Shown here one piece after another: positions 23,490-62,400 of a stretch of DNA of 64,000 nt; position 1 is the stretch's first letter; every line of letters begins with the position of its first letter. The position numbers were made by a program, and so were the translations under genes. The notes beneath the pieces were generated by a model. That model had not been told where the DNA came from and did no database searches. It was given only the letters and a program-made list of their open reading frames with translations. Source of the DNA: Bacilli bacterium (GTDB lineage: Bacteria; Bacillota_I; Bacilli_A; RF39; UBA660); the NCBI GenBank assembly GCA_017544165.1, contig JAFYER010000005.1:62001-126000 (forward strand). The letters run 5' to 3'.

Positions 23490-25661
23490 TCAAAAATGGC
23501 TTGGATTAAAGCAAATTTCGATATTAATCATATTATTTGTAGTATATAATTCATCTAGTTGTTTAAGAGCATCACATAATTTTTCATCATATGTATATTT
23601 AATAATAATTTGAAAATTGTAAACATTTTTAATTTTAAAAACCGATGCAGGCGTTGGCCCATATATTATTGATTTTTTATCAATATTTTGCTTCAAAAAA
23701 TTTTTAATCTTGTTTGCATTATTACTGGCTTGTTCATAATCAGAGGACTTAATATTTATGGTAACTATATATGTATAAGGTGGATATTTTAATTTATGAC
23801 GTATATCCATTTCATAACGATAAAACCCTTCATAATCATTATTTCTTACAAAATTTAATGTATCATTATCAGGGTTATATGTTTGAATTATTACCTCGCC
23901 TTGTTTATTGAACCTACCTGCTCTACCAGAGGTTTGATATAAAAGACTAAACGTTTTTTCATTTGCTCTAAAATCTGGAATATTAAGAGATGTATCAGCA
24001 TTTATAATACCTACTAAAGTAACATTTTTAAAATCTAAACCTTTGCTAATCATTTGTGTACCTAGTAAAATATCATATTCGTTATTAGAGAAAGAATCAA
24101 TTATTTTTTGGTAACTACCTTTCTTACTTGTTGTATCTTGATCCATTCTAATAATTCGAGCAAATGGATATAATTTTTTTAATTCATCTTCGAGCTTCTG
24201 AGTACCTAATCCTAGGTAGTTTAAACTATTTTCATGACACTTAGGACAAACATCGTCTTTTTTTAAACTATAACCACAATAATGGCATCTCAAGTTATTC
24301 GAAGATTTATGATAAGTAAGTGTAATATCACAATTTGGGCATTTATAAGTGTATCCGCAGTTACCACATGTTATAAAAGTCGAAAAGCCTCTGCGATTTA
24401 AAAGAAGAATAATTTGCTCATTTTTAGCAAATCTATCACTAATTTTTTCTTTAAGTAATTCTGAAAAAATAAAGTTTCTTTTTTTCACTTCATTAGTCAT
24501 ATCTACTAATTCAATTTCCGGTAGTGAGAGATTATTTGCCCTTTTATTTAATACAAGTAGTTTATATACACCCTTCATAGCTCTAGCTTTCGATTCTAAT
24601 GATGGTGTTGCTGAGGATAGTATTAAAGGAATATTATGATACTTAGCCCTAAATTTGGCTACTTCAATTGCATTATAGCGAGGATTAGTATCTTGATGGT
24701 AAGTTTCACTATGCTCTTCATCAATTATTATAATACCAAGGTTTTTAAGAGGTACAAATATACTTGACCTGGTCCCAACAACTATTTTAACTTCATCACG
24801 CAAAATTTTTTGATATTCGTCATGCTTTTCGCCAATGGAAAGGCCACTATGAAAAATCGCTACATTGCTACCAAATCGATCATAAAATCTTTGCACCGTT
24901 TGTGTAGTAAGACATATTTCAGGTACTAAAACAATAGCGCTTTTGCCCATTTTTAATACTTTACTTATTAATTGCATATAAACTTCTGTTTTACCTGAGC
25001 CTGTAACACCCTGCAATAAATATACATTATAACTGTTTAAATTCTTTTCGACACAATCAAAAGCAATTTGCTGTTCGTCATTTAATTTATTTTCTTTGTG
25101 AATAATATCCATTATGTCAATGCGATATTTTTGTTTTTTTTCAAGCCTAATTAATTCTTTTTCTTTAAATAATTTAATTATATTATTATCAATTATTTTC
25201 CTTGGCTGCTTATCCGTCATTAAAAGTTCTAAAACTTCTAATTGCTTATAAGCTTTTGGATGCATTAATATATACTCATTTGCTTTATTTTTGTCATCTA
25301 AAACAACAAATTCTTCATATTTACTAAAATTTTTATCGTTTTTTATTTTATAAGGTGCTGGAAGCATTGCCTGGTAGGCCGATATTAATGTACATAAAGT
25401 TTCCTTTTGCAAAAACCTACCAATTAAAAGTTGTTCTTCATTTAAACATAATTCTTCATCAACCGCTATTAATTCTTTTAAATCGTAATCAGGTCTATTA
25501 TCACTAATTCCAATCACAATACCATTTACAATATTTTTAGAAAAAGGTACCTTAACCTTCATACCTATTTTGATAATTTTTTGATATTTAAGTGGAATTA
25601 AATAAGTAAATTCTTTATCTAAAGATTTAACTGGATACTCAATTATTATCTGAGCGTACAT
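23490..25661 (-). CDS. priA: Primosomal replication helicase PriA
   Basis: A superfamily 2 helicase that restarts stalled forks, 723 aa. An N-terminal 3'-DNA-binding domain precedes helicase motifs GVTGSGKTEVY (Walker A), DEEH (Walker B) and SATPS. The zinc-binding region carries four Cys pairs between about 430 and 475 (CGNCGYTYKCPNC, then CHYCGY and CPKC). Motif V/VI segments GTQMISKGLDF and QTSGRAGR follow. It starts inside the 3' end of the sipW-type gene (23-base overlap) with an AGGTG ribosome site. Confidence 0.96.
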   Translation of the reverse strand: MYAQIIIEYPVKSLDKEFTYLIPLKYQKIIKIGMKVKVPFSKNIVNGIVIGISDNRPDYDLKELIAVDEELCLNEEQLLIGRFLQKETLCTLISAYQAMLPAPYKIKNDKNFSKYEEFVVLDDKNKANEYILMHPKAYKQLEVLELLMTDKQPRKIIDNNIIKLFKEKELIRLEKKQKYRIDIMDIIHKENKLNDEQQIAFDCVEKNLNSYNVYLLQGVTGSGKTEVYMQLISKVLKMGKSAIVLVPEICLTTQTVQRFYDRFGSNVAIFHSGLSIGEKHDEYQKILRDEVKIVVGTRSSIFVPLKNLGIIIIDEEHSETYHQDTNPRYNAIEVAKFRAKYHNIPLILSSATPSLESKARAMKGVYKLLVLNKRANNLSLPEIELVDMTNEVKKRNFIFSELLKEKISDRFAKNEQIILLLNRRGFSTFITCGNCGYTYKCPNCDITLTYHKSSNNLRCHYCGYSLKKDDVCPKCHENSLNYLGLGTQKLEDELKKLYPFARIIRMDQDTTSKKGSYQKIIDSFSNNEYDILLGTQMISKGLDFKNVTLVGIINADTSLNIPDFRANEKTFSLLYQTSGRAGRFNKQGEVIIQTYNPDNDTLNFVRNNDYEGFYRYEMDIRHKLKYPPYTYIVTINIKSSDYEQASNNANKIKNFLKQNIDKKSIIYGPTPASVFKIKNVYNFQIIIKYTYDEKLCDALKQLDELYTTNNMINIEICFNPSHF

Positions 25662-26118
25662 TTAGGCACCTATTAATAATATAGAGAATAATAGGAATAA
25701 TTACTACTAAACTCATCAACCAGTATTTATATTTATTTAGTGTTTTGACATTTATCACATTAAATACCATTTTGCCATTTATATCATCAACAGTAGGATC
25801 ATATCCGTCAATAAAGTTATTATTATCCCCTTTTGTAACGTAAGACGCAGTCTTTTTTTGTATAACCCGATGACATATAGACATTCCCTCATCATTCGTA
25901 TAAATAATTATATCATTTTCCTTATATTCAGGGTCTTTACGTACAAGTAAAATATCACCATTTTCAATAGTTGGAGACATACTTGTTCCACCGGCTGTGT
26001 AAATGGTAAAACCTAAAAAATTTCCATCTTTATTAAAGGCAAAAAAGCCAATACATACAAGAAGGAATAAGAAAATACATGTTATAAAACTCAATATTAT
26101 TCTCAATATATTTCTCAT
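25639..26118 (-). CDS. SipW-type (ER-type) signal peptidase
   Basis: A 159-residue type I signal peptidase of the ER/archaeal class. The nucleophile is S46 in GTSMSPT. The general base is histidine (H83 in ICHRV), not the lysine of bacterial LepB. Two membrane helices flank the catalytic domain (about 7-28 and 133-152). This class usually serves TasA-like substrates; a good substrate candidate lies at 34.8 kb. There is no Shine-Dalgarno before ATG; instead TATAAT ends six bases upstream, so the mRNA may be leaderless. It is followed by priA with overlap. Confidence 0.88.
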   Translation of the reverse strand: MRNILRIILSFITCIFLFLLVCIGFFAFNKDGNFLGFTIYTAGGTSMSPTIENGDILLVRKDPEYKENDIIIYTNDEGMSICHRVIQKKTASYVTKGDNNNFIDGYDPTVDDINGKMVFNVINVKTLNKYKYWLMSLVVIIPIILYIINRCLNVRSDNN

Positions 26119-26158: not shown

Positions 26159-27154
26159 TTATACATCAAAATTGCACCCGACATCTTTATGATTTAAATC
26201 GTTATATAGGGCATATGTCAAGCATTTTAACCCACCATGACACAGTTCGGCATTATCACAAAGTTTACAATCATCTGGAATTTTATTTTTGCGTAACTCT
26301 TTTAATAAAGGGTGATTTATATACAAATCATACATGTCATCTTTTAAAAGATTGCCAACTACAATGGGCATTCTACGGCAAGGGACTAAGTCACCATTTT
26401 CCATAACAGTTAAAAGAGTATCACCAGCGGTGCATCCATAGGCAAAATCATTAGTCATTTGAAACTGCAATGCCCTATACATCGATACCGTAGGTATAGT
26501 AATATTTTTCTTTAATAATTTTTCACGCTCTTTATTCATGATATTTAAATATGACCTAGTTTGATTATAAGTAAGCATTAAAGATTTGTCTTCTTTGCCT
26601 AAAGGAATGTATCTATCTGACCATACATTATTAACATTATGCTTTTTGGCAAATTTTACTACTTTGGGAAATTCCATATAATTAATATTTGTAGCAGTAA
26701 AAGAAATAGATGTAAATATTCCTTCTTTTTTTAAATTATCGACGCCTTTACCAATTTGCTTATAAGTACCCTTTCCTCTTATATGATCATTGGTTTTTTT
26801 ACCTCCTTCAAGACTTACTTGAACATAATAAGGATTATATGAGGCGATTTTCTTAGCCATTTTAGCATCTATCAATGTACCATTAGATAGTATTGAAAAA
26901 CTTATTAAATCACTATCTTGCTTAATTAAATCAAGCACTTTAAAAAAGAAAGGGTTACAGATAGGTTCACCACCTGTAAGATTAATATGCCCTTTCATTT
27001 TCATTTTTTTTAATAGTTTTTTATATTGCTCATATATATTTTTTAATTCATCAAATTTAAGACACACGGGTTTATGACCATCTTGATAACAGTGCAAACA
27101 ATGTAAATTACAATGCTCGCTTAAATGCCATTGTAAAATAAATCTGTTTACCAT
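26159..27154 (-). CDS. Radical SAM/SPASM enzyme coupled to a Cys-repeat substrate
   Basis: A 331-residue radical SAM enzyme. The [4Fe-4S] motif CxxxCxxC is C15, C19, C22. The SAM-binding GGEP motif follows at LTGGEPICN. A C-terminal SPASM domain carries further Cys, including C296, C299, C305, C311 and C327, for auxiliary clusters. Such enzymes modify peptides or proteins. The ATG at 27154 lies inside the last codons of the DUF2207 gene (7-base overlap), and the ribosome site GGAGG is made by that gene's Gly codons, so translation is tightly coupled. The neighbour's CSSC-GGG tail is the obvious possible substrate; this is inferred. Confidence 0.88.
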   Translation of the reverse strand: MVNRFILQWHLSEHCNLHCLHCYQDGHKPVCLKFDELKNIYEQYKKLLKKMKMKGHINLTGGEPICNPFFFKVLDLIKQDSDLISFSILSNGTLIDAKMAKKIASYNPYYVQVSLEGGKKTNDHIRGKGTYKQIGKGVDNLKKEGIFTSISFTATNINYMEFPKVVKFAKKHNVNNVWSDRYIPLGKEDKSLMLTYNQTRSYLNIMNKEREKLLKKNITIPTVSMYRALQFQMTNDFAYGCTAGDTLLTVMENGDLVPCRRMPIVVGNLLKDDMYDLYINHPLLKELRKNKIPDDCKLCDNAELCHGGLKCLTYALYNDLNHKDVGCNFDV

Positions 27155-29190
27155 GACCCACCGCCTCCACACGACGAACAACCTCCACCGCATGAAGAAC
27201 AGCCCCCGCCACAAGAAGAACAACCAGAGGAGCTAGAACTATTAGATGGAGTTGGATAATATACATTGTTACAAAAACTTAAATATGAACTATCGTTAGA
27301 ATAGTCAAACGAACCCATATCTACTTGTGGATAATAAATATCCTCAAACTTACTAACCCATTTCTTAGAAATACCTAGTACATAAGTATAAGGCAAAATA
27401 TTATAAAAATAGCTAGGATTTTGAGATACAAGTCTTTCTAATTGCTCTTTCTCAACTTTAATTAGGAAATTTCTAAATCCAAGAACTTTCGCTTTAATTT
27501 CTTCACCATACGTTGTTTTTCTTCCCATAAATATAATGAAGAATATACTTATTGGAATGCAATATAAACATACTTTATAAAGAATAAATAGTCTAGGATC
27601 TAAGTCTTCGAATATTGAATAAGCAAAAATATAACAAACGGCGGTTAGTATTACGCGCATAATAGCGCCAAATATTTTCGAACTAGCTTTAGAATCCTTG
27701 ATTTTCTCTTTTATATCACTTTCTAAAGCAGATTGAATTTCACCAAATAGTTTATAAAAGGTCAAGTGCTCACTTAAATAAAAAGATGAACCTTGGCTTA
27801 TTAAATTATCGAAAATACATCTTTCATATTCGTTTAATGCCGGCAAGTTCTCTAATTTTGCATTATACTCAGCTAGTTCTTTTTGATATTTTTCATATTC
27901 ATATTTTTCATTTTTCTTAGCATTATTAACAATATCCTCAATTTCATCATTATTATCGCTAATTATTTTTAAATATCCTTTTGAAACAAGTGCATCCTTT
28001 ACCTTTAAAAACTTATCAATATTTGCCTCGATTACGTGTATATCACTTGTTCTAAATAAATATTTCATCATAGTTAATTCATCACCAGATAAGTCAGGAT
28101 ATTTATCACCCTTAAATAATTTTTGCACTTCAATCTTTCTTTTGGGAGCATCTTTAACAATATACGGTTTTTTCGGTTCAGTAATACAATTAGTAATCTT
28201 GATTTTCTTTTTATCTTCTGTATCTATTTTAATATAGCCTTTACTAGCTAATGATAATACAAGTGAAATAGTTAACTTCTTCATGTTATTATTGCCGTAA
28301 ATATATCCAATTTCTGCCGAGCTTAAATTATCAGGAGGATAAAATTCAACAGTAGGAACTCTTTTTGGATAATTTTTACCATACTTATACCACGTAATAA
28401 TGGTAATAATAGTTAAAATAATTCCTACTAATATAGATATTAATGATTTTACACCATAGTTAAAGCTTCCACCAACAAAATAATTATCAGGCAAAACAAT
28501 ATCAAAAGTAAGAGATGATTTCAACGGTTCTTTAGATTTTGCTTTTATGGTGTTTTCTATTACGAATATTTCCATGCTACCAGTAATATCATCTTTACGG
28601 TATTTATCCGCAAAAAATTTAATATCTTCTTTATTAAATGATTTTGGTAAAACAATTTCCATAGAGGCATTATTAATATCAGTGCCCCAATAATCACCAT
28701 ACGCGTGGAATATGAATTCATCAAATCCATTAAAAGGGTCTTTACCCATATCATAAGTATAAGCAATTGTATATAATTTATCACCATAACTTACAAATGA
28801 ATTTGCACTACCAATTTTTATCCTTTTCTTCTTTTTAACTACATCTATAGTATAGGGATCATCTAAAGAACGATAATCACTTATAATAGATTTTCTTTTA
28901 ATAGTTTTATTGTCTTTTGATGTATATTCATACCACTCAGGCGTAAATTTATAAATGCCATGATGATTAGTATTATACCAATTAACCGTTATTTTTTCAG
29001 TGACATTAACTTTTAAATCTTCTTGAACGTCAAGTTTTACATCATAAGCAGAAATAGTAAATCCATCAGCTATAGAAACAGTATTTCCAGAACTATTAGA
29101 GGAATATGCAATGATATAAAAAAAAATAAATAAGATTATACAAAAAACTATTACTTGGCCACTATTACCGTTATTACTCTTTGTTTTCAT
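27148..29190 (-). CDS. DUF2207 membrane protein with CxxC-GGG tail
   Basis: A 680-residue membrane protein: signal anchor (about 10-29), outside DUF2207 domain (to about 235), a helix (about 246-268), a cytoplasmic part with a winged-helix-like segment, two more helices (about 508-555) and a C-terminal tail. The tail holds three CSSC units separated by GGG (Cys 657, 660, 664, 667, 671, 674) and ends GGGGSW. Topology puts this tail in the cytoplasm. Most relatives have Gly-rich tails ending in W; the six regularly spaced cysteines are notable. It is encoded directly after lemA, the usual partner. Confidence 0.85.
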   Translation of the reverse strand: MKTKSNNGNSGQVIVFCIILFIFFYIIAYSSNSSGNTVSIADGFTISAYDVKLDVQEDLKVNVTEKITVNWYNTNHHGIYKFTPEWYEYTSKDNKTIKRKSIISDYRSLDDPYTIDVVKKKKRIKIGSANSFVSYGDKLYTIAYTYDMGKDPFNGFDEFIFHAYGDYWGTDINNASMEIVLPKSFNKEDIKFFADKYRKDDITGSMEIFVIENTIKAKSKEPLKSSLTFDIVLPDNYFVGGSFNYGVKSLISILVGIILTIITIITWYKYGKNYPKRVPTVEFYPPDNLSSAEIGYIYGNNNMKKLTISLVLSLASKGYIKIDTEDKKKIKITNCITEPKKPYIVKDAPKRKIEVQKLFKGDKYPDLSGDELTMMKYLFRTSDIHVIEANIDKFLKVKDALVSKGYLKIISDNNDEIEDIVNNAKKNEKYEYEKYQKELAEYNAKLENLPALNEYERCIFDNLISQGSSFYLSEHLTFYKLFGEIQSALESDIKEKIKDSKASSKIFGAIMRVILTAVCYIFAYSIFEDLDPRLFILYKVCLYCIPISIFFIIFMGRKTTYGEEIKAKVLGFRNFLIKVEKEQLERLVSQNPSYFYNILPYTYVLGISKKWVSKFEDIYYPQVDMGSFDYSNDSSYLSFCNNVYYPTPSNSSSSSGCSSCGGGCSSCGGGCSSCGGGGSW

Positions 29191-29728
29191 TCAAATTTAC
29201 CTCTACATTATGCTTTTCTTCAACTGATGCCTCAAACATTTTTAATGATTTATAACCAAATAATTTTGCAACAATATTCGAAGGAAATGTCTCAACAAGA
29301 TTATTATAGACCCTTACAACAGCGTTATAATATTTGCGAGAACTTGCTATTTCATCTTCAATTAGACTCAAAGATTTTTGAAGCTCTAAAAAATGCGTGT
29401 TAGCTTTTATTTCAGGATAGCTTTCAACCAAAGCAAATAACTTAGTAAGTTGATTTGTGACTTTTCCGTTAGTCTCAAGCTTTTCATCATTATTTAAGTT
29501 ATCATAATTACTTCTTTGTGCAATGATTTCTTTTAAAGTATTAGACTCATAACTAGCATAGCCTTTAACAGTTTCAACTAAATTAGGTATTAAATCCCAA
29601 CGCTTTTTCAAATAGACATCCATGGTCGCGAACGCTTCATTAACAGCATTTTTTCGTTTTTTAAAAAGATTAAAAAGCATTAAAAATCCTAAAATTAAAA
29701 TAACTAATAATATAATAACTATCTTCAT
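29174..29728 (-). CDS. lemA: LemA family protein
   Basis: A 184-residue LemA protein: one N-terminal membrane helix (about 4-22), then a long coiled helical domain with the typical NAVNEAFATMDVYLKKRWDLIPNLVE segment and a C-terminal IASSRKYYNAVVRVYNN region. LemA genes are regularly paired with DUF2207 or TPM-domain genes, as here (17-base overlap). The function of the family is unclear; a membrane scaffold role is proposed in the literature. It follows the PPTase gene by about 28 bases. Confidence 0.92.
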   Translation of the reverse strand: MKIVIILLVILILGFLMLFNLFKKRKNAVNEAFATMDVYLKKRWDLIPNLVETVKGYASYESNTLKEIIAQRSNYDNLNNDEKLETNGKVTNQLTKLFALVESYPEIKANTHFLELQKSLSLIEDEIASSRKYYNAVVRVYNNLVETFPSNIVAKLFGYKSLKMFEASVEEKHNVEVNLNENKE

Positions 29729-29756: not shown

Positions 29757-30179
29757 TTATTTTAAACAAATAGCAATATAATAATTTTTATATTTTTTGA
29801 TTTTTATGTTATTAATTGTTTGTGTATCGGCATTTATAAGACCATATGATAATCCCTGGCCCACCATTTTAACAAAGCTTTCTTTTTTTACCCAAATTTT
29901 AGTAAAATCATTTGCATTTTTTATAAGCTTTTTTTCATTTTCGTTACATATCTTATTTATAATTTTGGCTTTATAGGTTATTTTTTGAATATCAACACCA
30001 ATTTCCTTGTCACTGACAGCTAATACAGCATATTTATCAGAATGACTTACATTAAAAAAAATGGGATTATCCTTAAAGTATGGCTTTCCATATTTATTAT
30101 AAATAATCTCATTATTTAAGTTATGTTTTCTTAATAAATCACAAGTAGGTATATTTCTACTAATATATAACTTATACAT
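29757..30179 (-). CDS. 4'-phosphopantetheinyl transferase, Sfp-like short
   Basis: A 140-residue enzyme that would load the phosphopantetheine arm onto the ACP encoded just upstream. Key motifs are GVDIQ (Mg2+ and CoA binding) and WVKKESFVKMVGQGLSYG. It is shorter than Sfp (about 220 aa). ATG 30179 is chosen; it lies inside the last codons of the ACP gene (8-base overlap). An in-frame TTG lies at 30188. The Asp of GVDIQ and the KESFVK core are intact, so it looks active. Confidence 0.9.
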   Translation of the reverse strand: MYKLYISRNIPTCDLLRKHNLNNEIIYNKYGKPYFKDNPIFFNVSHSDKYAVLAVSDKEIGVDIQKITYKAKIINKICNENEKKLIKNANDFTKIWVKKESFVKMVGQGLSYGLINADTQTINNIKIKKYKNYYIAICLK

Positions 30180-30396
30180 GACTTTCAATATATTTTATTA
30201 TATCTTCGACTGTCTGAAGATTTTTAATATCTTGATCAGGAATCTCAATATTATACTTTTGTTCGAAAGCCACTACTAAAGAAACTAAGTCGAGTGATTC
30301 AACATCTAAATCAGCAGTTAAATTAGTTTTTTCAGTGATTTTTTTCTTGCTTATCCCTAGCGTTTTTGATATCAATTCAATTATTTCATTTTTCAT
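30172..30396 (-). CDS. Acyl carrier protein
   Basis: A 74-residue acidic carrier protein. The attachment serine is S34 in LDVESLDLV, followed by the family's helix II and IEIPDQDIKNLQTV. The DVESLD context fits a carrier protein; it may be a dedicated carrier rather than the fatty acid synthase ACP, since it sits between a ligase (2-base gap) and its own PPTase (overlapping). No fatty acid synthesis genes are nearby. Confidence 0.92.
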   Translation of the reverse strand: MKNEIIELISKTLGISKKKITEKTNLTADLDVESLDLVSLVVAFEQKYNIEIPDQDIKNLQTVEDIIKYIESHV

Positions 30397-30398
30397 GT

Positions 30399-31979
30399 TT
30401 ATTTTTCCTTTCCAATTAAATCCCTAACAATTTTTTTACTGCTATTTTTGGGAAATTCTTCACTACGAAGTTCAACATATGCAATTTGATTATTCTTTGG
30501 TTTATCTTTATTATATTTATAAATTAAATCATCAAAATATTCTTGATTCCCTATATAATCCTCATTTGGATATATTATAGCAATTATCTTATTATCTTTC
30601 GGATAGACAACAACTTCACAAACCGCATTATCTCTTTGCAAAACATTCTCGATAGTCTCGGGGCTAATATTCTCGCCATTTGATAGAATAATTAAATTTT
30701 TCTTTCTACCTGTTATAAAAACAAAGCCGTCATCATCAACATATCCAAGATCGCCTGTATGAAAATACCCATCCTTCAAAACGGCAGCATTACTTTTAGG
30801 ATCTTTGTAATAGCCTTTCATGACATTATCACCCTTAACACAGAGTTCGCCATCAATAACTTTTACTTCAACGCCTTTGCAAGGTATACCGACGCTTCCA
30901 TCTTTATAGTTTTCAACTTGATTGACTGATACAACCGGCCCACATTCAGTAATACCATAACCATTTAAAATATTAATACCGATACTTCTAAACCATTTAA
31001 TATAAAATTTATCTAAGTACGCCCCACCACAAATAATTGTATCAAGGTTTCCACCAAACTCATTTAAAATTGATTTAAACATTTTTCTTCTTCTATCAAT
31101 GCCAATTTTTAAAAGACCATTACTCATCCTAATTGAAAGCTTTAAAAGCATTTGTTTATGATGAGATCTTGCATTTTTCCATATTTGTTTATAAAACGTC
31201 TCGATAAATAAAGGAACCGCAAAAATCGTCTGAGGTTTATATTCTTTTAAGTCTTTCATAATATTTTTTAGACTATTACTAATCAAAACTGGCATACCAT
31301 AATTATAAGCCATGAGTACAGCGGTAATCAATCCAAAAGCGTGATGAAAAGGCAAATAATCAACTACTGGTCCATATGGGTCATAACATGATGAAGCCCC
31401 GACAATATCAAAAGCCATATTTTTTTGAGACAACACAACAGCTTTGTTAGGGCCAGTTGTTCCAGAAGTAAAGAAAATAGCTGCATCTTTATCATCATCT
31501 ACTTCAACCTTAAAGCCTGTTATCATTCTTCCTTTTGTAATATATTTATCTAAATCCTCTAGCTTATAGGTTTTCATGAATAAAATTTCTTTAATAAAGG
31601 AACAATATTTATTTGAAAAACAAATTATTTTAGTATCAGATAATCTTAAAAGCTTATTTACTTTGCTTTTATCAGAATCTTTATCAATAATTACCGCAAT
31701 ATTCCCACTTAAAATGATTGCCATAAAAAAAATCAACCAGTTGTAACTATTTTCACCTATTAAGGCAATATGTTTATTGAAATTAGTCTTAGCAAGATAA
31801 GCACTTAATGCCATTATTTCGTTATATACTTCACCATAAGTTTTGTTAATTATAACGTTATCTTCGCGATAAGAAAACGCAACCTTTTTAGGCATTTTAT
31901 TCTTTTTATTTTCAATAATCTCAAATAAATTACTTACATTTTTAACATCATAATATTCATGGTTATTCTTTAAATTCAT
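30399..31979 (-). CDS. AMP-dependent acyl-CoA/acyl-ACP ligase
   Basis: An ANL-superfamily adenylating enzyme of 526 aa. P-loop FFTSGTTGPNK, the substrate-pocket motif NGYGITECGP, HTGDLGYVD and the C-terminal catalytic Lys in NSSKKIVRD are present. It activates a carboxylic acid as AMP ester and passes it to a thiol, probably the ACP encoded two bases downstream. The substrate is likely a fatty acid but cannot be proven. ATG 31979 is chosen because GGTG lies six bases before it; the upstream ATG 31991 has no ribosome site. A -10 TATAAT lies at 32005-32010. Confidence 0.9.
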   Translation of the reverse strand: MNLKNNHEYYDVKNVSNLFEIIENKKNKMPKKVAFSYREDNVIINKTYGEVYNEIMALSAYLAKTNFNKHIALIGENSYNWLIFFMAIILSGNIAVIIDKDSDKSKVNKLLRLSDTKIICFSNKYCSFIKEILFMKTYKLEDLDKYITKGRMITGFKVEVDDDKDAAIFFTSGTTGPNKAVVLSQKNMAFDIVGASSCYDPYGPVVDYLPFHHAFGLITAVLMAYNYGMPVLISNSLKNIMKDLKEYKPQTIFAVPLFIETFYKQIWKNARSHHKQMLLKLSIRMSNGLLKIGIDRRRKMFKSILNEFGGNLDTIICGGAYLDKFYIKWFRSIGINILNGYGITECGPVVSVNQVENYKDGSVGIPCKGVEVKVIDGELCVKGDNVMKGYYKDPKSNAAVLKDGYFHTGDLGYVDDDGFVFITGRKKNLIILSNGENISPETIENVLQRDNAVCEVVVYPKDNKIIAIIYPNEDYIGNQEYFDDLIYKYNKDKPKNNQIAYVELRSEEFPKNSSKKIVRDLIGKEK

Positions 31980-32054
31980 ACTCTTCACCATAGTTTCTAT
32001 TAGTATTATATCAAATGATTTACATTTTTTGTAGGTAAAAATCTACTTTTATGA

Positions 32055-34804: not shown

Positions 34805-36592
34805 TTATTCAATTTTGTATGGATCATTCCATTTACCTGTACCCCCACTAAATATAGTATCAGATTTTAAATATAAGACAGGTCTAACGTTCCAAGTAGA
34901 GAAATTAGCAGCTCCAAAGCTGCCAACACTTCCCCCTTGATAAACGTTATAAAGAGAAAAACAACCTGTTGATGGACTGGGAGAAATTGTCCACTGAATA
35001 GTTCCACTGGTTCCAGGCGAAGTGGATGTAATACCTGTAAATAATAGCCAGCTATTTAACGCACAATCTGTTTTATAGCTTCCACTATCCCAATCACTCA
35101 TATTATGTCCTAAGCAAGCATCCCTATCGTAAGTGCTACCACCATTTGATGCATATCCATAATCACTTGCGTACATTAATCCTATTTTTCCATACCAATA
35201 TACCGGTCTATTTTCAAATAAGTTATCATCAACGCATAGTTTATAGGTACTATTATAATTTCTTTCATAATAATAGAAAGATGTAGCCGGTGACATCGGA
35301 GAAGGCTGATGCAAATACCATTTAACCGATGCTATCTTTGTTAAGTAAGACGCACTAATTTTAACTATGCTACCTGATGTAGAAGTGTATCCGTTTATGG
35401 ATGCTACACCCGGAATATATATATTACTCCCATTTCCATCTAAATAGCTATATGTTGAATTATAAAAACTATATCCATTTCCTGAAACCATATTATTTGT
35501 TATTGAATAGCCAGTATGTAATTGAACATTATTTACATCGTATCCTGTCTTTAAATAATTAGTACCATTCAACATAAGCATTAACTGACTATCGCTCCAA
35601 TCGCTAGATCCATAATCTGCAAGTGAAGAGCCAACACCTGTTTGTTTATTATCCCATGCAAACTGCCCTAATGAATCATTTCTAATAATTTTTACTAAAC
35701 TACCTGTACTGATGCTATTACACTCATTAGCGGTACCATATGAACCTGTACAATAAGTTGTATCAGGCATAACTCCAATTATTCGCCATAATTCACCATT
35801 AAAAGATATGTAGTTATCGGGATTTTTACCAGCATATCGCCATTCGTTAGCATGATCTGACGTTAAAATCCAAGGCGTACTACCAACTGCTGAAGTTCCA
35901 GATTTTGGCGCTGTATCTATTAAATATCTAACCAAAGAAATAGAATTTGATCCTACTTTACATTTAACATTCGATACATTAAATTTACCAGATAATGATT
36001 TGCCCGCTAAGGCACCTTGATCAGCATTCGCATTATAAAATTTTGATATTATAGTCCATGTAGCAGTTGAAGTAGTACTTCCAGATCCTTCAATTTGTGC
36101 CCCTTTAACAACCAATGAACTAGAATTATTCCATGGTAGATTGGCAAAGTCGTTCTCGTTTTGAATATAATTCAATCCTTCACTAACATTAGAATTATTA
36201 GTTAAAGTAGCTTGAACTGTAAATTCATTCCCAGTTGCTCCAGGAGAGTGAGCCTGATATTTATCTGTACTTGTCCATTCATAAACTATATCATATGTAC
36301 AAACTATATTACTAGCTGTATTAGGTTGAAAATTAACTGTAAGAGTAGTTGTATTTTGAGCTACTACATTACCAATAAAATTAGGTTTAAGGTCAGATGC
36401 ATTAAAACTCAAACTCATTTGTCCACCCAAAACATCAAAAACAATATTATTCTCATCAGTTAAGAGGTTAACATTAGCCGTATTATTTACATTAAAATTA
36501 CCCATAACAAAAAAAGCATATGTAGAATATATTGCTAGTATTAATATAAATAATAGCGATAAAATCAAAATAGATGAATTCTTTTTACTCAT
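34805..36592 (-). CDS. Surface protein with SipW-type signal
   Basis: A 595-residue exported protein. The N-terminus (about 8-30) is hydrophobic and ends in YSTYAFFVMGN, the look of a SipW-type signal peptide. About 30-200 resembles TasA-like beta domains. The C-terminal half carries a WRIIG-type core, a WSDSQLMLMLNG segment and a final VRPVLYLKS region with a Gly-rich end, a domain common in gut Bacilli surface proteins (DUF6273-like). It has no LPXTG. Cys pairs suggest disulfides. The processing enzyme is probably the SipW-type peptidase at 25.6 kb. Function unknown. Confidence 0.7.
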   Translation of the reverse strand: MSKKNSSILILSLLFILILAIYSTYAFFVMGNFNVNNTANVNLLTDENNIVFDVLGGQMSLSFNASDLKPNFIGNVVAQNTTTLTVNFQPNTASNIVCTYDIVYEWTSTDKYQAHSPGATGNEFTVQATLTNNSNVSEGLNYIQNENDFANLPWNNSSSLVVKGAQIEGSGSTTSTATWTIISKFYNANADQGALAGKSLSGKFNVSNVKCKVGSNSISLVRYLIDTAPKSGTSAVGSTPWILTSDHANEWRYAGKNPDNYISFNGELWRIIGVMPDTTYCTGSYGTANECNSISTGSLVKIIRNDSLGQFAWDNKQTGVGSSLADYGSSDWSDSQLMLMLNGTNYLKTGYDVNNVQLHTGYSITNNMVSGNGYSFYNSTYSYLDGNGSNIYIPGVASINGYTSTSGSIVKISASYLTKIASVKWYLHQPSPMSPATSFYYYERNYNSTYKLCVDDNLFENRPVYWYGKIGLMYASDYGYASNGGSTYDRDACLGHNMSDWDSGSYKTDCALNSWLLFTGITSTSPGTSGTIQWTISPSPSTGCFSLYNVYQGGSVGSFGAANFSTWNVRPVLYLKSDTIFSGGTGKWNDPYKIE

Positions 36593-41650: not shown

Positions 41651-41677
41651 AAAAAAAAGCTTACATATTAATGTAAA
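41651..41677 (-). terminator. Terminator of the sortase-adhesin unit
   Basis: The stem TTACAT/ATGTAA (41661-41666, 41671-41676) includes the adhesin stop codon and is followed on the minus strand by a GC then a T run (41651-41658). Confidence 0.6.
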
Positions 41678-44600
41678 CTTTTCTTTTTAAATATATCAAA
41701 CCTATTAGTGATATATAAAGCATTAACGTATTAGCATTATATGCTACACTAGTATTTGCTTCAATACCTGTATGAGGTGGTTCAATAGTCCCTACTGCCT
41801 CATAACTATTAGTAATTACAAATCCGTTTTCAGCATCACCGGTTTTACTTGTAATATAATTATCAACTGATAATTCATCAACGTCATATGTAATTTCTTC
41901 ACCATTAATATATAGAGGTAAATCTTCGATAGTAATAGTCCAATCATCATCAGCAGTAATTTCATATGTATCATATAAATCACCATTAGCAAGTAATATT
42001 ATTGAAATAGAACTTGGTCGATTTTCTTCGTTTCCTTCATCTTCCCAATTTTTAGTTACTTCAATAGATATAGTTTGTAATGTATTAATGATTGTTAAAC
42101 CATCTTCACTATATGATGTGTCATATCCAGGTACTTCTACAGTTTCTTTTACTGTATATGTTATCTTTTCACCATCAATATAAGCTGGTAAATCTTCGAT
42201 AATCAATATCCATTCACCGTCTTCATCAGGTTCCATAACAATTTCGTCACCATAGTCTTCACTATTAGCTTGTAATTGAATAGTTATAGATTCAGGACGA
42301 TTTAATTCATCATCATTATCTTCCCAAACTTTTGTAATTGTAATGCTAGTTAATACTGTATTAGTAAATGTAAATCCTTCGTCGATATCTCCAGATTTAT
42401 TTGAAATATAACCTGGAACATCTTCTTCTTCGACATCGTATTCAATAACTTCGCCAGCTTCATCATAAATAGGTAGATTTTCAAATACAAATGTCCAATT
42501 ATTATCTGCATTTAATTCTGCTTCATCACCATTTGATAGGTTAACTATAACGCTATCAGGTCTAACACCTAATTCATCATCACCATCATCCCATACTTTG
42601 GTTACAGTAATATCGATACCAACATTTCTATTAGTATAAATTACAGAATAAACCATATTAGGTTTTTCAATAGTGCCTGTTAAAGTTTCACTATCTCCAA
42701 TAATTTCAATAGGCTCCTCTTCATCTGGATCATTGATAGTTAATTTAGTTTCTGAGAAAATAAACTTTTCATTTATATTAGATTCAGTAATTGTATAAGT
42801 TGTGCCAGATAATAAGTTAATAATACGAAGGTTCCAACCTTTTTTAATTCTTACGATAAAATCTTCACCACTTGGAGCGTAATAATAGTCAGTTCCTTCC
42901 TCTTTAGTGGCGCCAATTACAACAAGCCCATCCTCTTCTGTAATAAATGTATCACTAGTCTTAGATTCTTTTACTGAGAACCAAATATCCTCCCCATTTT
43001 TATCGACAACATTAATAGTAAATTCAAATAATTCATCATCAAAGGTTGGGAAACTTGGATCATCATATGTAACATCTTTTTCAATGTCAATATAACTACG
43101 GCGTTCATTTACAGCAGTTAATTCTGCTACACCCTCATTAAGTTCACCGACAACATAATAAACGCCATCAATTAAATAATATGTACCCTCTTCAGGTTCT
43201 ACATCGCCATTGTTAATTAATAAAGTTAATTCTCCATTAATAAGCATTGGTCTTACGATATCACTTTTAAGCTCCCAATTATACGCATCGGAACCAAGTT
43301 CACCAAATGAGTAATCATGACCAGAAGTAAGTAACTCAATAGAACCATCCTCATGAATAAGCATAATGCCAACAGAAATGTATGATGAAGAGCTATAATT
43401 ATTATCTTCATTTAATTCAATTGTATTAAATATTTCACCATCTTGAAGTACGTTAATTTGAATTGGTCTTTTAGGTCTAGTATCAATGTTGTTAACCCAA
43501 TCTTTTGTAATTGCTAATGATTGTGTATAGATCGTATTAACAGGGTCAGGATTATCAAAGTTAGATATTCCATTATTAGTTCCTCCTGGACGAGTATCTA
43601 CAAATGTAATATATGCTTCAGTATTTGTCTTTAATGTATAAGAAACATCATCGCCTTCGCCATTTCTTTCAATATATTGTTGTACCTCAGGATCTAATGT
43701 ATCGTAATTTTCAGGATGATTTTTTAAATCAGCAATTGTATCTAATGTATATTGGCTTGGCCAAACTTTAAATGTAACAGTGTATGTTACACCATTAAGT
43801 AGTACACCGTGGCTAGATAAATCCCATACTACAGAGTCGTTGCCATTCTCATCAGTTATAAGTTCTGCTGCAGTTGGAGCTTCAGAATGTAAACCATTAC
43901 CTTCAGCTGTCCATTGGATTTTAAATATAGTTTTAGTTATATTGTTTTCATCAGTAAAGCTTACGATATCACCAGTTATTGAGTGACTACCTTTACTATC
44001 TGTCCATGTTCCAGTATAATTAGTTCCATTATTTGTGAATGTAATTGTACTACCGGTAGTAGAATTTGAATAAGTATCGTTTTGACCCTCAACTGGAGTA
44101 ACATCCATTGATAGCCAATATTCATAAGAGGTTTCATCAATATCAAGTAAATGGAATGTTCCTTTAATAGAAGATGTAGTACCATCAACAACTTGAACTG
44201 AGCTAACGCCCATTGCTTGAATAACTTGACCTTTAATGTCATCAATTGCAGTTTGTAAGAAAGATGTCTCAGAAGCATTATAGTAATTAGGAGCAGAAAC
44301 TGTATTTTCGCCAACAGTTCTTTCTTCACCAGCAGCTTGGAATGAATTATACATTAAGTCATCTAAAAGGTCGGCTTCATCACCATAGATATAAATACCA
44401 TATAGTTCTGTATTTTCACCACCTTGAACGCTTCTAGCGAAAGGTAGAGCCTCATTATAATATCTTAAAAGTGTACTTAAAGAACTGCTTGGAGCTACAA
44501 TAGTACTAATACCATTGGCAGCAGTTGGAGCACCATCTGTAACAAATATTACATAAGTTTTATCATGATCTGAATTAGTTATAATTCCTTCAGTAAGCTC

Positions 44601-45590
44601 TAGAGCTGCTTGCCAGTTTGTTCCTAAAGTTCCGTAATTAAAATTAGTTCTTCCGTTTGTGCCATTAGAATCAAAAAAACTTAAAATCGAATCTAAATTA
44701 GTAGTTAGTCCTCTTCTCGTATTTCCAGTTGCATCGAATGTAACTAGAGCCATCTCAATATTTGATGGATCAGTCTTGTCTTGATACTCAGCTAAACTAG
44801 AAATAAATCCATGTACGACAGCTTCAGCTTGATCACCACGTCTATAACTACTAGTACCAGCTGTTGTAGACATACTTTGTGATGTATCATAAACGATAAT
44901 AACATTAACGTTTGTTTTATTATTACTTTCAGGAATGGAATCACCTGTAACTTCTAACGATAAAGTATATGTACCATCTTCGTTATCAATTAAATCTTTG
45001 TTGTGTTCAGGTTCACCCTCTGGATCAGTAACCTTGATAATATATTCATCACCATTTGTTGTATGAATTACTAAAGTCTCTTCAGTATCAAATGATCTTA
45101 AACTTTTAATTGCATAATCATTTGAGCCTTCTACTTTAGTTATACTTAATATAGTTTCATCACTTGTATAAATTTCATAAACATCTGATGTTACTATATT
45201 AATGTTTAGTTTTTGGTTTAATTGAGAAAGTAAGATTGTACTTCCGCCCTTAATATTAAAACTATATCCATCATGAGTAAATGTTACTTGATAATTATTT
45301 GTACCAAGTTGATATGAAACTTCTTCCATATTATCAACTGTATCAATAACCTCTACTACATTATTTTCACTTTCATTAAATTCTTCTGTTATAACCTCTA
45401 TTAGATTGTCTTCATCTATTGTATCTATTACAACTTCACTTAATTCTTCTTCACCATTTGTTTCTGTTACAACATCTACAATATTATTTTCATTATTAAT
45501 TAAGTTTTCAATTTCATCTGCATTTGTGTTAAGAGTAAACGCAAATAATGAAATCATAAATACTAATATATATGTAATTATTTTTTTCAT
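41661..45590 (-). CDS. Sortase-anchored VWA/Cna-B adhesin
   Basis: A 1,309-residue surface protein. After a signal peptide (about 1-24) comes an acidic Asn/Glu-rich N-terminus, then a von Willebrand A domain with MIDAS motif DTSQS near residue 235. Next are a divergent Cna-like domain (LAITKDWVNN) and another beta domain. Three Cna-B repeats follow, each with TKVW or TKNW at the front and FTN or ITN at the end, the Lys and Asn that form isopeptide bonds. The end has sorting signal PPHTG, a hydrophobic stretch and a basic tail. ATG 45590 has AAGGAGGG encoded within the sortase gene (TAATATG junction). It is likely a pilus-tip-like adhesin, alone with its sortase. Confidence 0.92.
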   Translation of the reverse strand: MKKIITYILVFMISLFAFTLNTNADEIENLINNENNIVDVVTETNGEEELSEVVIDTIDEDNLIEVITEEFNESENNVVEVIDTVDNMEEVSYQLGTNNYQVTFTHDGYSFNIKGGSTILLSQLNQKLNINIVTSDVYEIYTSDETILSITKVEGSNDYAIKSLRSFDTEETLVIHTTNGDEYIIKVTDPEGEPEHNKDLIDNEDGTYTLSLEVTGDSIPESNNKTNVNVIIVYDTSQSMSTTAGTSSYRRGDQAEAVVHGFISSLAEYQDKTDPSNIEMALVTFDATGNTRRGLTTNLDSILSFFDSNGTNGRTNFNYGTLGTNWQAALELTEGIITNSDHDKTYVIFVTDGAPTAANGISTIVAPSSSLSTLLRYYNEALPFARSVQGGENTELYGIYIYGDEADLLDDLMYNSFQAAGEERTVGENTVSAPNYYNASETSFLQTAIDDIKGQVIQAMGVSSVQVVDGTTSSIKGTFHLLDIDETSYEYWLSMDVTPVEGQNDTYSNSTTGSTITFTNNGTNYTGTWTDSKGSHSITGDIVSFTDENNITKTIFKIQWTAEGNGLHSEAPTAAELITDENGNDSVVWDLSSHGVLLNGVTYTVTFKVWPSQYTLDTIADLKNHPENYDTLDPEVQQYIERNGEGDDVSYTLKTNTEAYITFVDTRPGGTNNGISNFDNPDPVNTIYTQSLAITKDWVNNIDTRPKRPIQINVLQDGEIFNTIELNEDNNYSSSSYISVGIMLIHEDGSIELLTSGHDYSFGELGSDAYNWELKSDIVRPMLINGELTLLINNGDVEPEEGTYYLIDGVYYVVGELNEGVAELTAVNERRSYIDIEKDVTYDDPSFPTFDDELFEFTINVVDKNGEDIWFSVKESKTSDTFITEEDGLVVIGATKEEGTDYYYAPSGEDFIVRIKKGWNLRIINLLSGTTYTITESNINEKFIFSETKLTINDPDEEEPIEIIGDSETLTGTIEKPNMVYSVIYTNRNVGIDITVTKVWDDGDDELGVRPDSVIVNLSNGDEAELNADNNWTFVFENLPIYDEAGEVIEYDVEEEDVPGYISNKSGDIDEGFTFTNTVLTSITITKVWEDNDDELNRPESITIQLQANSEDYGDEIVMEPDEDGEWILIIEDLPAYIDGEKITYTVKETVEVPGYDTSYSEDGLTIINTLQTISIEVTKNWEDEGNEENRPSSISIILLANGDLYDTYEITADDDWTITIEDLPLYINGEEITYDVDELSVDNYITSKTGDAENGFVITNSYEAVGTIEPPHTGIEANTSVAYNANTLMLYISLIGLIYLKRKVYINM

Positions 45591-45591
45591 A

Positions 45592-46311
45592 TTAATAAAC
45601 CCTCCTTGCAATAATTAATAAATATTTTTTATTATAGTTTTCAAATCCTTTTTTAAAACTACATGTCTGTAAAATTAAAATTTTATCATCGGGTGATATG
45701 TTCTCCCCCGTATCATACATTGAATTGCTTTTCAATTTTTCTAAATGTGCAAACCAATCGTCTTTATTTGCAAAATCGATATTTAAATAATACCAATCTT
45801 TTGTTTCGACATATACAGAAAATATTTTATATCTCCACAAACCCTGCTCGGTAATGAGCTCTATATAAGGGTGATCATCATAATAATCTTTGCCGTAGTA
45901 ATTTTCTAATTCTTTAAAAGGTACGTCATAAGTTTTTGAATTGTGTCCATAAATTAATAAGGATGGAGACTTTTCAATATCGACGCGATAATCCATAAAA
46001 GGATTTCCAATAACATCTTTTTGCCCATAAATGTTTGTCGTCAAATATTTATTGTTATCAGTTGTCTTTGTAACGATAACGCTTAGTTCAGTATCAGGAA
46101 TATTTAATATACCCGTTATTTCATCATTATCATATTCTTGTTGTAAATCTTTAATACTAACGGTCTTATCATTATAATTATCTAGTTTGATTACAGATAA
46201 GTCTTTAGCTTTGGCATCAACTTTATCCGAAGATAGATTATAAATGATATATATTGATGTCAGTAATAAGATAACAAATAAAAATTTACTAAATAGTCTT
46301 TTACTCCTCAT
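45592..46311 (-). CDS. Class B sortase
   Basis: A 239-residue transpeptidase that anchors proteins to the wall. It has an N-terminal membrane helix (about 9-27). Catalytic His is H123 in IYGHNSKT, Cys is C217 in LQTCSF, and the Arg is R236 or R237 in IIARRV. Length, the HPYIELIT segment and DTGENISPDDKIL follow the SrtB class. The substrate is surely the adhesin encoded one base downstream, whose signal PPHTG differs from the canonical NPQTN of Staphylococcus SrtB. ATG has GGAGAG. Confidence 0.92.
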   Translation of the reverse strand: MRSKRLFSKFLFVILLLTSIYIIYNLSSDKVDAKAKDLSVIKLDNYNDKTVSIKDLQQEYDNDEITGILNIPDTELSVIVTKTTDNNKYLTTNIYGQKDVIGNPFMDYRVDIEKSPSLLIYGHNSKTYDVPFKELENYYGKDYYDDHPYIELITEQGLWRYKIFSVYVETKDWYYLNIDFANKDDWFAHLEKLKSNSMYDTGENISPDDKILILQTCSFKKGFENYNKKYLLIIARRVY

Positions 46312-59478: not shown

Positions 59479-62400
59479 TTAATGAATATTATTAATTCTA
59501 ATATTTTTATAAGTTGAGTTACCTGCTAAATCTTTAACAGTTATAAATTCATTTGTATTAGCAGTATAAACTTTTGTAAATGTTTTAGCATCTACTCTTG
59601 TCCAACCATCAATATCTTGTAAATCTTCATTACCAGTAATAGTAACAGTTACAGGTCCACTTGTATTTGATGTTGTACTATATGATACGGTTACAGATGG
59701 AGCTGTTAAATCAGGTGTAAATGAATATGTATTAGTATTACCAGCTACATCGGCAAAATCAACAGTCACGCTAGTAGCTCTAGTAAAATCTTGGTAATAT
59801 TCTGTATCACTAACTTTTGTCCAGCCACTTGAAGTAATTGTTACAGCTTCACTAAAGATTAGAGTAACCTTATCTGTTTTTCTATAAGAACCAGTAACAA
59901 CTTGATTAATTGAACTTACTTCAGGAGCAGTTTTGTCAATATTAGTTATTACAATATTTGCACTGGCACTATTGCCAACTAAATCGTACACAATTACTGA
60001 TTCATTTATATTATCAGTATATTCTTTTATAAATTTAGTTGATGATACTTTTGTCCAGCCTTCAATATCTTGTAAGTCTTTATCTGAAGTAATTGTTGCA
60101 GTTACATCTTGATTTGTTAGATTTGTTTCACTATAACCAACTTCTAGATTAGGTGCTGTTTTATCAATATTTTCAATAACGATATTATCAGTAGCAGTAT
60201 TTCCCGCTAAGTCATATACAGTAATTGATTCATTAACATTACCATCAAATGCTTTAGTAAACGTCATACTATCAGCAGTTGTCCAACCAGAAATATCTTG
60301 TAATTTTTCACTAGCAGAAAGTGTTACAGTTACATCTTGATTTGTTGGATTTGTTTCACTATATGAAATTGATATTGTAGGAGCCGTTCTATCGATGTTT
60401 TCGATTACAATACTAGCAGTTGAACTATTTCCTACTAAATCAGTTGCAGTTATAGTCTCATTTGCATTTTCAGCATATTCTTTCGTAAATGTCTTAGCAT
60501 CTACTTTTGTAAAGCCATCAATATCTTGAATATCTTCATCTGAAGTAATTGTTGCAATTACATTTTGATTAGTTGGATTTGTTTCACTATATGAAACATT
60601 TAATGTAGGAGCTGTTTTATCAATATTAGTTATTTCAATATTAACAGTTGCTGTGTTACCTGCTAAATCATAGAAAGTTACTGTTTCAGTAGCATTATCA
60701 TCATATGTTTTAGCATATGTATTTTCACTATCAGTAGCAGCCCATCCATCAGTTTCTTGTAGTTTTTCATCTGAAGTAACTGTTACAACTACCTCGCCAT
60801 TAGTTGGTTCTGTAGTACTATAAGAAGATATGCTAACTGTAGGAGCTGTCTTATCAATATTTTCAATTACAACATTAACAGTTGCAGTATTACCTAGTAA
60901 ATCGCTTACAGTTATAGTTTCTGTAGCATTATAAGCAAATTCTTTAGTAAATTCTTTAGCTGATACTTTTGCCCAGCCTTCGATATCTTGAATATCTTCG
61001 TTAGATGAAATAGTAGCAACTACACTTTCGTTTGTAGGATCTTCAGTGCTGTAAGATACAGTAATTTCAGGAGCTGTTTTATCAATATTAGTTATTTCAA
61101 TATTAACAGTTGCAGTATTGCCCGCTAAATCCTTAACTTCAACACTTTCTGTAGTATTTTCTTCATATGTTTTTGTAAATTCAGTTGCTGATACTTTTGC
61201 CCAACCTTCGATATCTTGTAAGTCTTTGCTTGAAGTAATTGTTGCAACAACATTATCTTTAGTTGGATTAGTATTGTCATAAGATACGCTTACTTCTGGA
61301 GCTACTCTATCAATATTTTCAATACTGATATTTGCCGTAGCTTGATTACCAATTAAATCTAATACAGTAATTGTTTCAGTAGTATTATCTTCATAAACTT
61401 TTGTAAATTCAGTTGCTGATACTTTTGTCCAGCCCTCAATATCTTGTAAATCTTCATTTGAATTAATGGTTACAGTTACATTTTCATTTGTAGGATCTTC
61501 AGTGCTGTATGATACTGTAATTTCAGGAGCTGTCTTATCAATATTAGTTATTTCAATATTAACAGTTGTAGTATTACCAACTAGATCTTTTACAATAATA
61601 CTTTCAGTAGTATTTTCTTCATATACTTTTGTAAATTCAGTTGCTGATACTTTTGTCCAGCCTTCGATATCCTGTAAGTCTTCATCTGAAGTAATTGTTG
61701 CTGTTACAGCCTTATCAGTAGTAACAGAAGGATCATAAGATATAGTAATCATTGGAGCAGTTGCATCAATTGAATAGCTATAAGTATTTGTATTACCAGC
61801 TTCATCAGTAAATTCAATAATGCCATCAAGTGACATTGTAAATGTTGAAGTATAAGTTATAGAGTCACTACTTGACCATGTATTATCACTAATAGTTACT
61901 TTTTCATCAAATGTTACAGTAGCTTTAATCATAGGTGAACTACTACTTTGAGCTTCTGTTTCAAATGAAACAACCTCAGGAGCTACTCTATCGATATTTG
62001 TTACTTCGACAGCAACAGTTGTACTATTTCCAGCAATATCGATAATTGTTATATCTTCAGTAGTATTTTCACTATAAGTTTTTGTAAATGACTTATCATC
62101 TGTTTTAGTCCAACCTTCAATATCTTGAATGCTTTCATTAACAGATAGTGTAGCTACAACATCTTCATTTGTAGGAACAGTCTTACTATAAGATACTACA
62201 CCTTCAGGAGCAATAGTATCAATGGTAAAGTTAACCGTTGTTTCGTTAAATGCTTTATCTACAACAGTAAGAGTATATACACCATTACTAACAGTATCGC
62301 CATTTTCAAATGATACTTCTTCACCATCTTTAGTAAGTGTTGCATCAAATTCATTATCATCAGTAATTTGAATAGCCGTTTCTTTATTTAATATTGCTTC

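Follow-up and report, generated by a model that had tools for sequence, protein, structure and literature searches.

A radical SAM/SPASM enzyme coupled to a Cys/Gly-tailed DUF2207 membrane protein, a probable tail maturase

Introduction

Known relatives of the system described here differ in what they modify. The precursors of the radical S-adenosylmethionine (SAM)/SPASM enzymes CteB, SkfB, SuiB and ChlB are small peptides; anSME has a protein substrate, in which it converts Cys to formylglycine, and carries no RRE domain. In the ACGX system (TIGR04340), a single-domain-pair radical SAM/SPASM enzyme stands beside a Cys/Gly-repeat polypeptide, and SbtM (TIGR04082) takes four hydrogens off Cys peptides to give thiooxazole (PMC11002830). 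For MNIO enzymes, proposed substrates are Cys tails in the Ser/Gly-rich C-terminus of TIGR04222 membrane proteins, tails predicted to be periplasmic (PMC12452194). Membrane proteins of the DUF2207 family are widespread, have no assigned function and carry a large intracellular, Gly- and Ser-rich C-terminus (PMC10457818). Here we describe a locus in a window of 64,000 nucleotides from a Bacilli bacterium of the UBA660 lineage (contig JAFYER010000005.1, positions 62,001 to 126,000), where a DUF2207 membrane protein ending in a Cys/Gly tail overlaps the gene of a radical SAM/SPASM enzyme. A search of the open-licence literature found no published description of a DUF2207/radical SAM pair and no publication on ACGX with radical SAM.

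Results

The genes for LemA, the DUF2207 protein and the radical SAM/SPASM enzyme are arranged head to tail with overlaps, all on the minus strand. The C-terminal sequence of the DUF2207 protein is ...GCSSCGGGCSSCGGGCSSCGGGGSW, with the end of the open reading frame read as SSSSSGCSSCGGGCSSCGGGCSSCGGGGSW, and consists of three CSSC units with GGG spacers and a closing GGGGSW. Counted back from the end, the tail Cys are residues 657, 660, 664, 667, 671 and 674, and the translation thus agrees with a sequence-only reading of this DNA, which had reported three GGG-spaced CSSC units at Cys 657-674. That reading had also placed the enzyme start in the last DUF2207 codons and the ribosome site in the tail Gly codons. 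Indeed, the enzyme ATG at 27154 lies within TCATGGTAA, so that the first seven bases of the enzyme gene (ATGGTAA) also close the DUF2207 frame, stop codon included, and directly 5' of this ATG the tail glycine codons read GGAGGCGGTGGG, by eye a possible ribosome-binding site. The span it gave, 27148-29190, fits the DUF2207 gene; the enzyme itself lies outside, at 26159-27154. The cytoplasmic location that it proposed for the tail matches both a topology prediction from four hydrophobic segments and the positive-inside rule and the family description in PMC10457818.

Enzyme and tail were then counted in two genome samples. Six of 213 genomes sampled from the window's family encode the enzyme (E <= 1.2e-131), and the same six carry a Cys-tailed DUF2207; a seventh match (G016, 1.8e-36) is an ACGX family member (550 bits). 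The loose pattern CxxCGGG matches 15 of these genomes, six by DUF2207 tails, while seven of the other nine matches lie 80-267 residues before the frame end, one has an internal stop and one (G109) was not placed. Within the same genera, sampled sister genomes that have no enzyme have no tail either: G001, G006 (g1), G219 (g39), G255 (g114) and G100 (g85). Both are present in G004, a genome outside the 213-genome sample. In 250 genomes of the Pseudobutyrivibrio family the loose pattern is uninformative (204 match, mostly by chance), and a strict pattern ending in GGGG-S-W-stop was used, which is blind to other tail ends such as GGGGAD (L137, L139) and those of TIGR04222 tails. The enzyme (E <= 2.6e-131) occurs in G260, G396 and G426, and the strict pattern in these three only. 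A phylum-level draw of 392 genomes, each listed under the same class or family, gave the window genome as the sole match to the strict pattern. The chance of such co-occurrence would be ~8e-12 in the window's family and ~4e-7 in the Pseudobutyrivibrio family if draws were independent, figures that are illustrative because the genomes are related.

Paralogs of the membrane protein follow the same division. The family sample and G004 together hold 48 distinct DUF2207-like frames, seven of them Cys-tailed, and these are the seven that adjoin the enzyme. Forty of the remaining 41 have no Cys in their last 40 residues and one open-ended fragment has a single Cys; 33 of the 41 end in a Cys-free Gly/Ser tail and the rest have no tail, two of them running off the contig. 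Four genomes (G046, G047, G218 and G232) each hold both Cys-tailed and Cys-free paralogs.

A scan of GTDB genome contigs returned at least 80 loci. Among the matches listed are 33 close orthologs, 61-80% identical to the window enzyme, and all 33 have a Cys tail directly upstream. In 32 of these loci the frame that carries the tail is intact, with an overlap of 7 nucleotides in 31 and of 4 nucleotides in L107; in the last, L120, GCSSCGGGGSW-stop is in place with the same overlap and the DUF2207 frame is broken. Three loci (L103, L123 and L135) correspond to G004, G129 and G232, so the locus set and the genome sample overlap. The genes flanking the pair differ between G000/G004, G129, G218/G046 and G047, and enzyme distances track distances of the DUF2207 body (r 0.925, 32 pairs, 0 of 2000 permutations). 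A comparison of 34 tails (the window and L103-L135, with 33 different DNA sequences) showed C-[SG]-[SG]-C-G-G-G-G-S-W-stop as the end of all 33 distinct versions, with synonymous variation of the Cys, Ser and Gly codons, which points to more than chance. The sequence-only reading had allowed for an enzyme occurring mostly without Cys-tailed DUF2207 genes; the opposite was found, close orthologs and tail standing together in the loci and samples examined. Its alternative of a coupling by chance does not stand against six of six in 213 genomes, three of three in 250 and a tail adjoining the enzyme in 33 listed loci.

More distant enzymes (L136-L139, 40-44% identity to the window enzyme) show the tail on other host proteins as well. 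In L137 and L139 the enzyme follows a DUF2207 protein with a (CSS)n tail ending in GGGGAD; in L136 and L138, two Nitrospinota metagenome-assembled genomes with enzymes 42-44% identical, it follows a TIGR04222 membrane protein with a GCGGCG-type Cys/Gly tail. The genes do not overlap in L136, L138 and L139 (gaps of 68-75 nucleotides), and the tail is still Cys-rich. Since TIGR04222, which is unrelated to DUF2207, carries a Cys/Gly tail beside the enzyme, the tail and not the protein body is the common factor. In L140 (Electrothrix) a 34% identical enzyme precedes an unnamed 157-amino-acid membrane protein bearing a Cys/Gly tail. The enzyme tree unites the 24 tail-linked enzymes included in it in a single clade (100/99) and sets six ACGX enzymes apart (100/100); the placement of L140, on a long branch, is unsure. 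At the 42 loci that are more remote still (L141-L182), screening picked out no Cys/Gly-tailed membrane protein beside the enzyme. At L143, a 96-amino-acid frame ~1.6 kb upstream of the enzyme ends in a Cys/Gly stretch. At L147 (2385-2837, minus strand), Cys-rich SSCxxGxCxC repeat frames with one internal stop lie ~2.2 kb upstream of the distant enzyme relative, on the opposite strand. MNIO (PF05114) was matched in none of seven study genomes, including both with TIGR04222 tails, and in two of 14 control genomes; it was therefore rejected as the enzyme for the window tail.

LemA, which the sequence-only reading had included in the system, is not a constant partner. Identified by phmmer, it immediately precedes the pair in 10 of the 29 loci whose flank is long enough (in 10 of 25 counting close orthologs only) and was rejected as such on this count. 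Because of this, and because the Nitrospinota partner is another membrane protein, we take tail plus enzyme to be the constant unit. Close DUF2207 relatives without any Gly/Ser tail were seen in L099, L100 and L101 (genomes G256, G180 and G208), with a LemA-like gene directly upstream.

The window enzyme matches PF04055 (Radical_SAM, 77.2 bits) and PF13186 (SPASM, 29.7 bits), both above the Pfam cut-off, and has the C-x3-C-x2-C motif and the seven-Cys SPASM motif of the superfamily. The SPASM spacing C-x17-C ... C-x2-C-x5-C-x-GG-[LA]-K-C-x15-C is found in 21 of 21 aligned members of the tail-linked clade. The second half of the motif reads C-x2-C-x5-C-x5-C in the window enzyme; the usual SPASM motif has x3 at the spacing where it differs. 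Its best NCBIfam matches are ACGX (145.1 bits, against a cut-off of 400) and SbtM (125.7 bits, against 350), and in the anSME profile it scores 63 bits, far below the cut-off of 349. SbtM acts on Cys and is related in sequence to the window enzyme and its tail-linked relatives (125-169 bits), but only the C-terminal part of its 516-position profile, from ~199, matches, and its target is a small peptide (PMC11002830).

ACGX-type relatives occur at 10 places in nine Pseudobutyrivibrio-family genomes, where they are 26-30% identical, and in G016 (L098). ACG-repeat frames lie beside 10 of these 11 enzymes (L216, L217, L219-L225 and L098; L218 is without), and the two that were scored against NCBIfam reach 550 and 589 bits and so pass the ACGX cut-off. 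No ACGX repeat peptide was found near the window enzyme, whose neighbour is DUF2207 with its CSSC-GGG tail. ACGX enzymes moreover form a separate clade with a different SPASM spacing, and their substrate is a small repeat peptide, whereas the candidate here is the end of a membrane protein. Membership of the window enzyme was rejected by score, neighbour and tree. A plasmid search gave one distant match to the enzyme, an ACGX enzyme annotated acgM on a Roseburia plasmid record.

An AlphaFold model of the enzyme, built with 21 sequences, has a radical SAM and SPASM fold throughout (mean pLDDT 86.8). The solved structures closest to it are all SPASM enzymes that modify peptides or proteins, namely CteB (Z 28.1), anSME (27.7), SuiB (26.6), ChlB (26.2) and SkfB (25.6), and its best PDB sequence matches are SkfB and a CteB entry. 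The fold of anSME is shared over nearly the full length. For CteB and SuiB the alignment begins only at about residue 91-106, so that their N-terminal parts have no counterpart in the window enzyme. No RRE-like extension is apparent in the model (CteB aligns only from residue 91), although no search aimed at RRE domains was made, either on the enzyme or as a separate protein. The Cys-rich sequence linked to the enzyme terminates a 680-amino-acid protein and is no small leader-bearing precursor peptide.

Discussion

We propose, with a probability of roughly four in five, that the enzyme is a dedicated radical SAM/SPASM maturase of a cytosolic membrane-protein tail, apparently acting without a leader or an RRE domain. 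The coupling, the common clade, the model fold and the predicted topology can be read from the sequences themselves; that the tail is the substrate we infer. Among the genomes examined, close relatives of the enzyme were found only where such a tail is present, and the enzyme therefore most likely modifies it.

DUF2207 would be inserted with its C-terminus in the cytosol, and the enzyme would be produced right next to the new tail by ribosomes re-starting in the gene overlap. It would cleave SAM and abstract hydrogen in the Cys/Ser/Gly tail, turning tail Cys into a cross-link or a heterocycle; the smallest unit kept in close orthologs is C-x-x-C-GGGG-S-W. Candidate products are thioethers, with a mass shift of -2 Da each, and 5-thiooxazoles, with one of -4 Da each. 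As the enzyme shows no RRE-like extension and the contexts viewed have no protease or exporter gene constantly next to the pair, the tail once modified probably remains attached to the membrane protein and would be a stiff or metal-binding element there. Either purpose, a stiffened tail or metal binding, is a guess.

Several points weigh against this proposal. The evidence for the pair consists wholly of co-occurrence, adjacency and fold. The co-occurrence counts are not independent trials, the genomes being related, and the contig scan could have missed tail-less orthologs. In G270 (L120, L184) the intact Cys-tailed DUF2207 has no enzyme next to it, the enzyme sitting at a different place beside the broken copy, an arrangement that suggests enzyme action in trans. 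The periplasmic location predicted for TIGR04222 tails (PMC12452194) is awkward for a cytosolic enzyme. This conflict would be removed if modification precedes export; the DUF2207 case in the window, with its tail predicted to be cytosolic, is free of it.

Regarding the chemistry, thioethers of the sactipeptide or ranthipeptide type, joining tail Cys to Gly, Ser or Cys carbons, are a tentative choice that we rate somewhat below even odds. The best structural match, CteB, is a thioether maturase whose auxiliary cluster leaves one site free to take up a thiol of the substrate, the PDB sequence matches point the same way, and the seven SPASM Cys are as in the standard motif. Yet anSME is tied with CteB in Z, and the acceptors would be mostly Gly and Ser. 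The thioethers suggested by the sequence-only reading survive as one option only, since the best-scoring NCBIfam families are no thioether families but ACGX and the thiooxazole maker SbtM, both far below their cut-offs.

Conversion of tail Cys to 5-thiooxazoles, which would make the tail a membrane-tethered metal ligand and the enzyme an oxygen-independent counterpart of MNIO, is possible but doubtful. SbtM, with its four-hydrogen removal, is one of the two best family matches and the best for L137 (169 bits); these scores are under half of its cut-off. TIGR04222, the proposed MNIO host (PMC12452194), bears the tail next to the enzyme in L136 and L138, two loci whose genomes gave no MNIO match, but a common host protein is no proof of common chemistry. 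Both proposals concern Cys in a Ser/Gly-rich C-terminal tail of a membrane protein, although MNIO are unrelated, oxygen-using enzymes. A wider scheme, which we consider unlikely, would turn the Gly/Ser tails found on DUF2207 and TIGR04222 proteins into a platform of general use for Cys chemistry, on which the radical SAM clade and MNIO convergently produce thiooxazole-type metal ligands that stay permanently membrane-tethered and uncleaved.

Another SPASM reaction on the tail, for example epimerisation or formation of formylglycine from Cys, is improbable: anSME ties for the best structural match and acts on protein Cys without an RRE, but the window tail does not contain its target motif, C-x-P-x-R.

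Equally improbable is an unmodified metal-binding tail, with the enzyme acting elsewhere and overlap and co-inheritance as operon effects. CxxC units can bind metal as they are, and an overlap by itself would help to keep both genes together. Against this stand the separated genes of L136, L138 and L139 with their Cys-rich tails, the tail on an unrelated protein beside the same enzyme clade, and the Cys-free tails of DUF2207 paralogs without the enzyme. That the Gly codons are kept merely as ribosome-binding site, with Cys as a by-product, can practically be dismissed despite the GGAGG-type codons directly before the start, as the Cys codons in the window reach ~22 codons further upstream than the bases common to both genes, and Cys is kept as amino acid despite DNA variation and where the overlap is absent.

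If the enzyme is indeed a tail maturase, a leaderless, RRE-less modification at the end of a large membrane protein would widen the substrates of the radical SAM class and parallel the MNIO/TIGR04222 proposal with an enzyme needing no oxygen. A dedicated radical enzyme would also be a chemical handle on what the Gly/Ser tail of DUF2207 does, and named hosts such as Pseudobutyrivibrio ruminis DSM 9787 (L132) make the pair testable.

Genomic context

Table 1. Coordinates of the enzyme-tail locus within the window.
Feature	Position	Strand	Basis
lemA, upstream neighbour of the DUF2207 gene, not a constant part of the system	29174..29728	-	Pfam LemA
DUF2207 membrane protein, 680 amino acids, four predicted transmembrane segments, Cys/Gly tail	27148..29190	-	Pfam PF09972 (DUF2207), 66.8 bits; PF20990 (DUF2207_C), 102.4 bits; both above cut-off
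Tail CSSCGGGCSSCGGGCSSCGGGGSW, residues 657-680, proposed substrate	27151..27222	-	Reading frame and DNA of the DUF2207 gene; tail comparison
GGAGGCGGTGGG, tail Gly codons, possible ribosome-binding site of the enzyme gene	27157..27168	-	Judged by eye
Radical SAM/SPASM enzyme, 331 amino acids, 7-nucleotide overlap with the DUF2207 stop (27148-27154)	26159..27154	-	Pfam; model
CNLHCLHC, radical SAM cluster motif (C-x3-C-x2-C), enzyme residues 15-22	27089..27112	-	Sequence; alignment
SPASM region, seven Cys (241, 259, 296, 299, 305, 311, 327)	26174..26434	-	Pfam; alignment

Directly downstream of the enzyme lie a signal peptidase I gene (25639-26118, minus strand; TIGR02228, 73 bits) and then a PriA-like gene, an order also present in G004 and not in the other contexts viewed. 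Upstream of lemA, genes for a 4'-phosphopantetheinyl transferase, an acyl carrier protein and an AMP-binding ligase (29757-31991, minus strand) keep their order in G004. Three further minus-strand genes encode large proteins. A 1300-amino-acid protein with a VWA and three Cna_B stretches (41661-46311), adjoining a sortase gene, is likely a surface adhesin. A 595-amino-acid protein with an N-terminal hydrophobic segment (34805-36592) has no Pfam match at E 1e-5, nor has a 1211-amino-acid protein (59479-63114) built of repeated 'NIDKTAPxxSVSYS' units.

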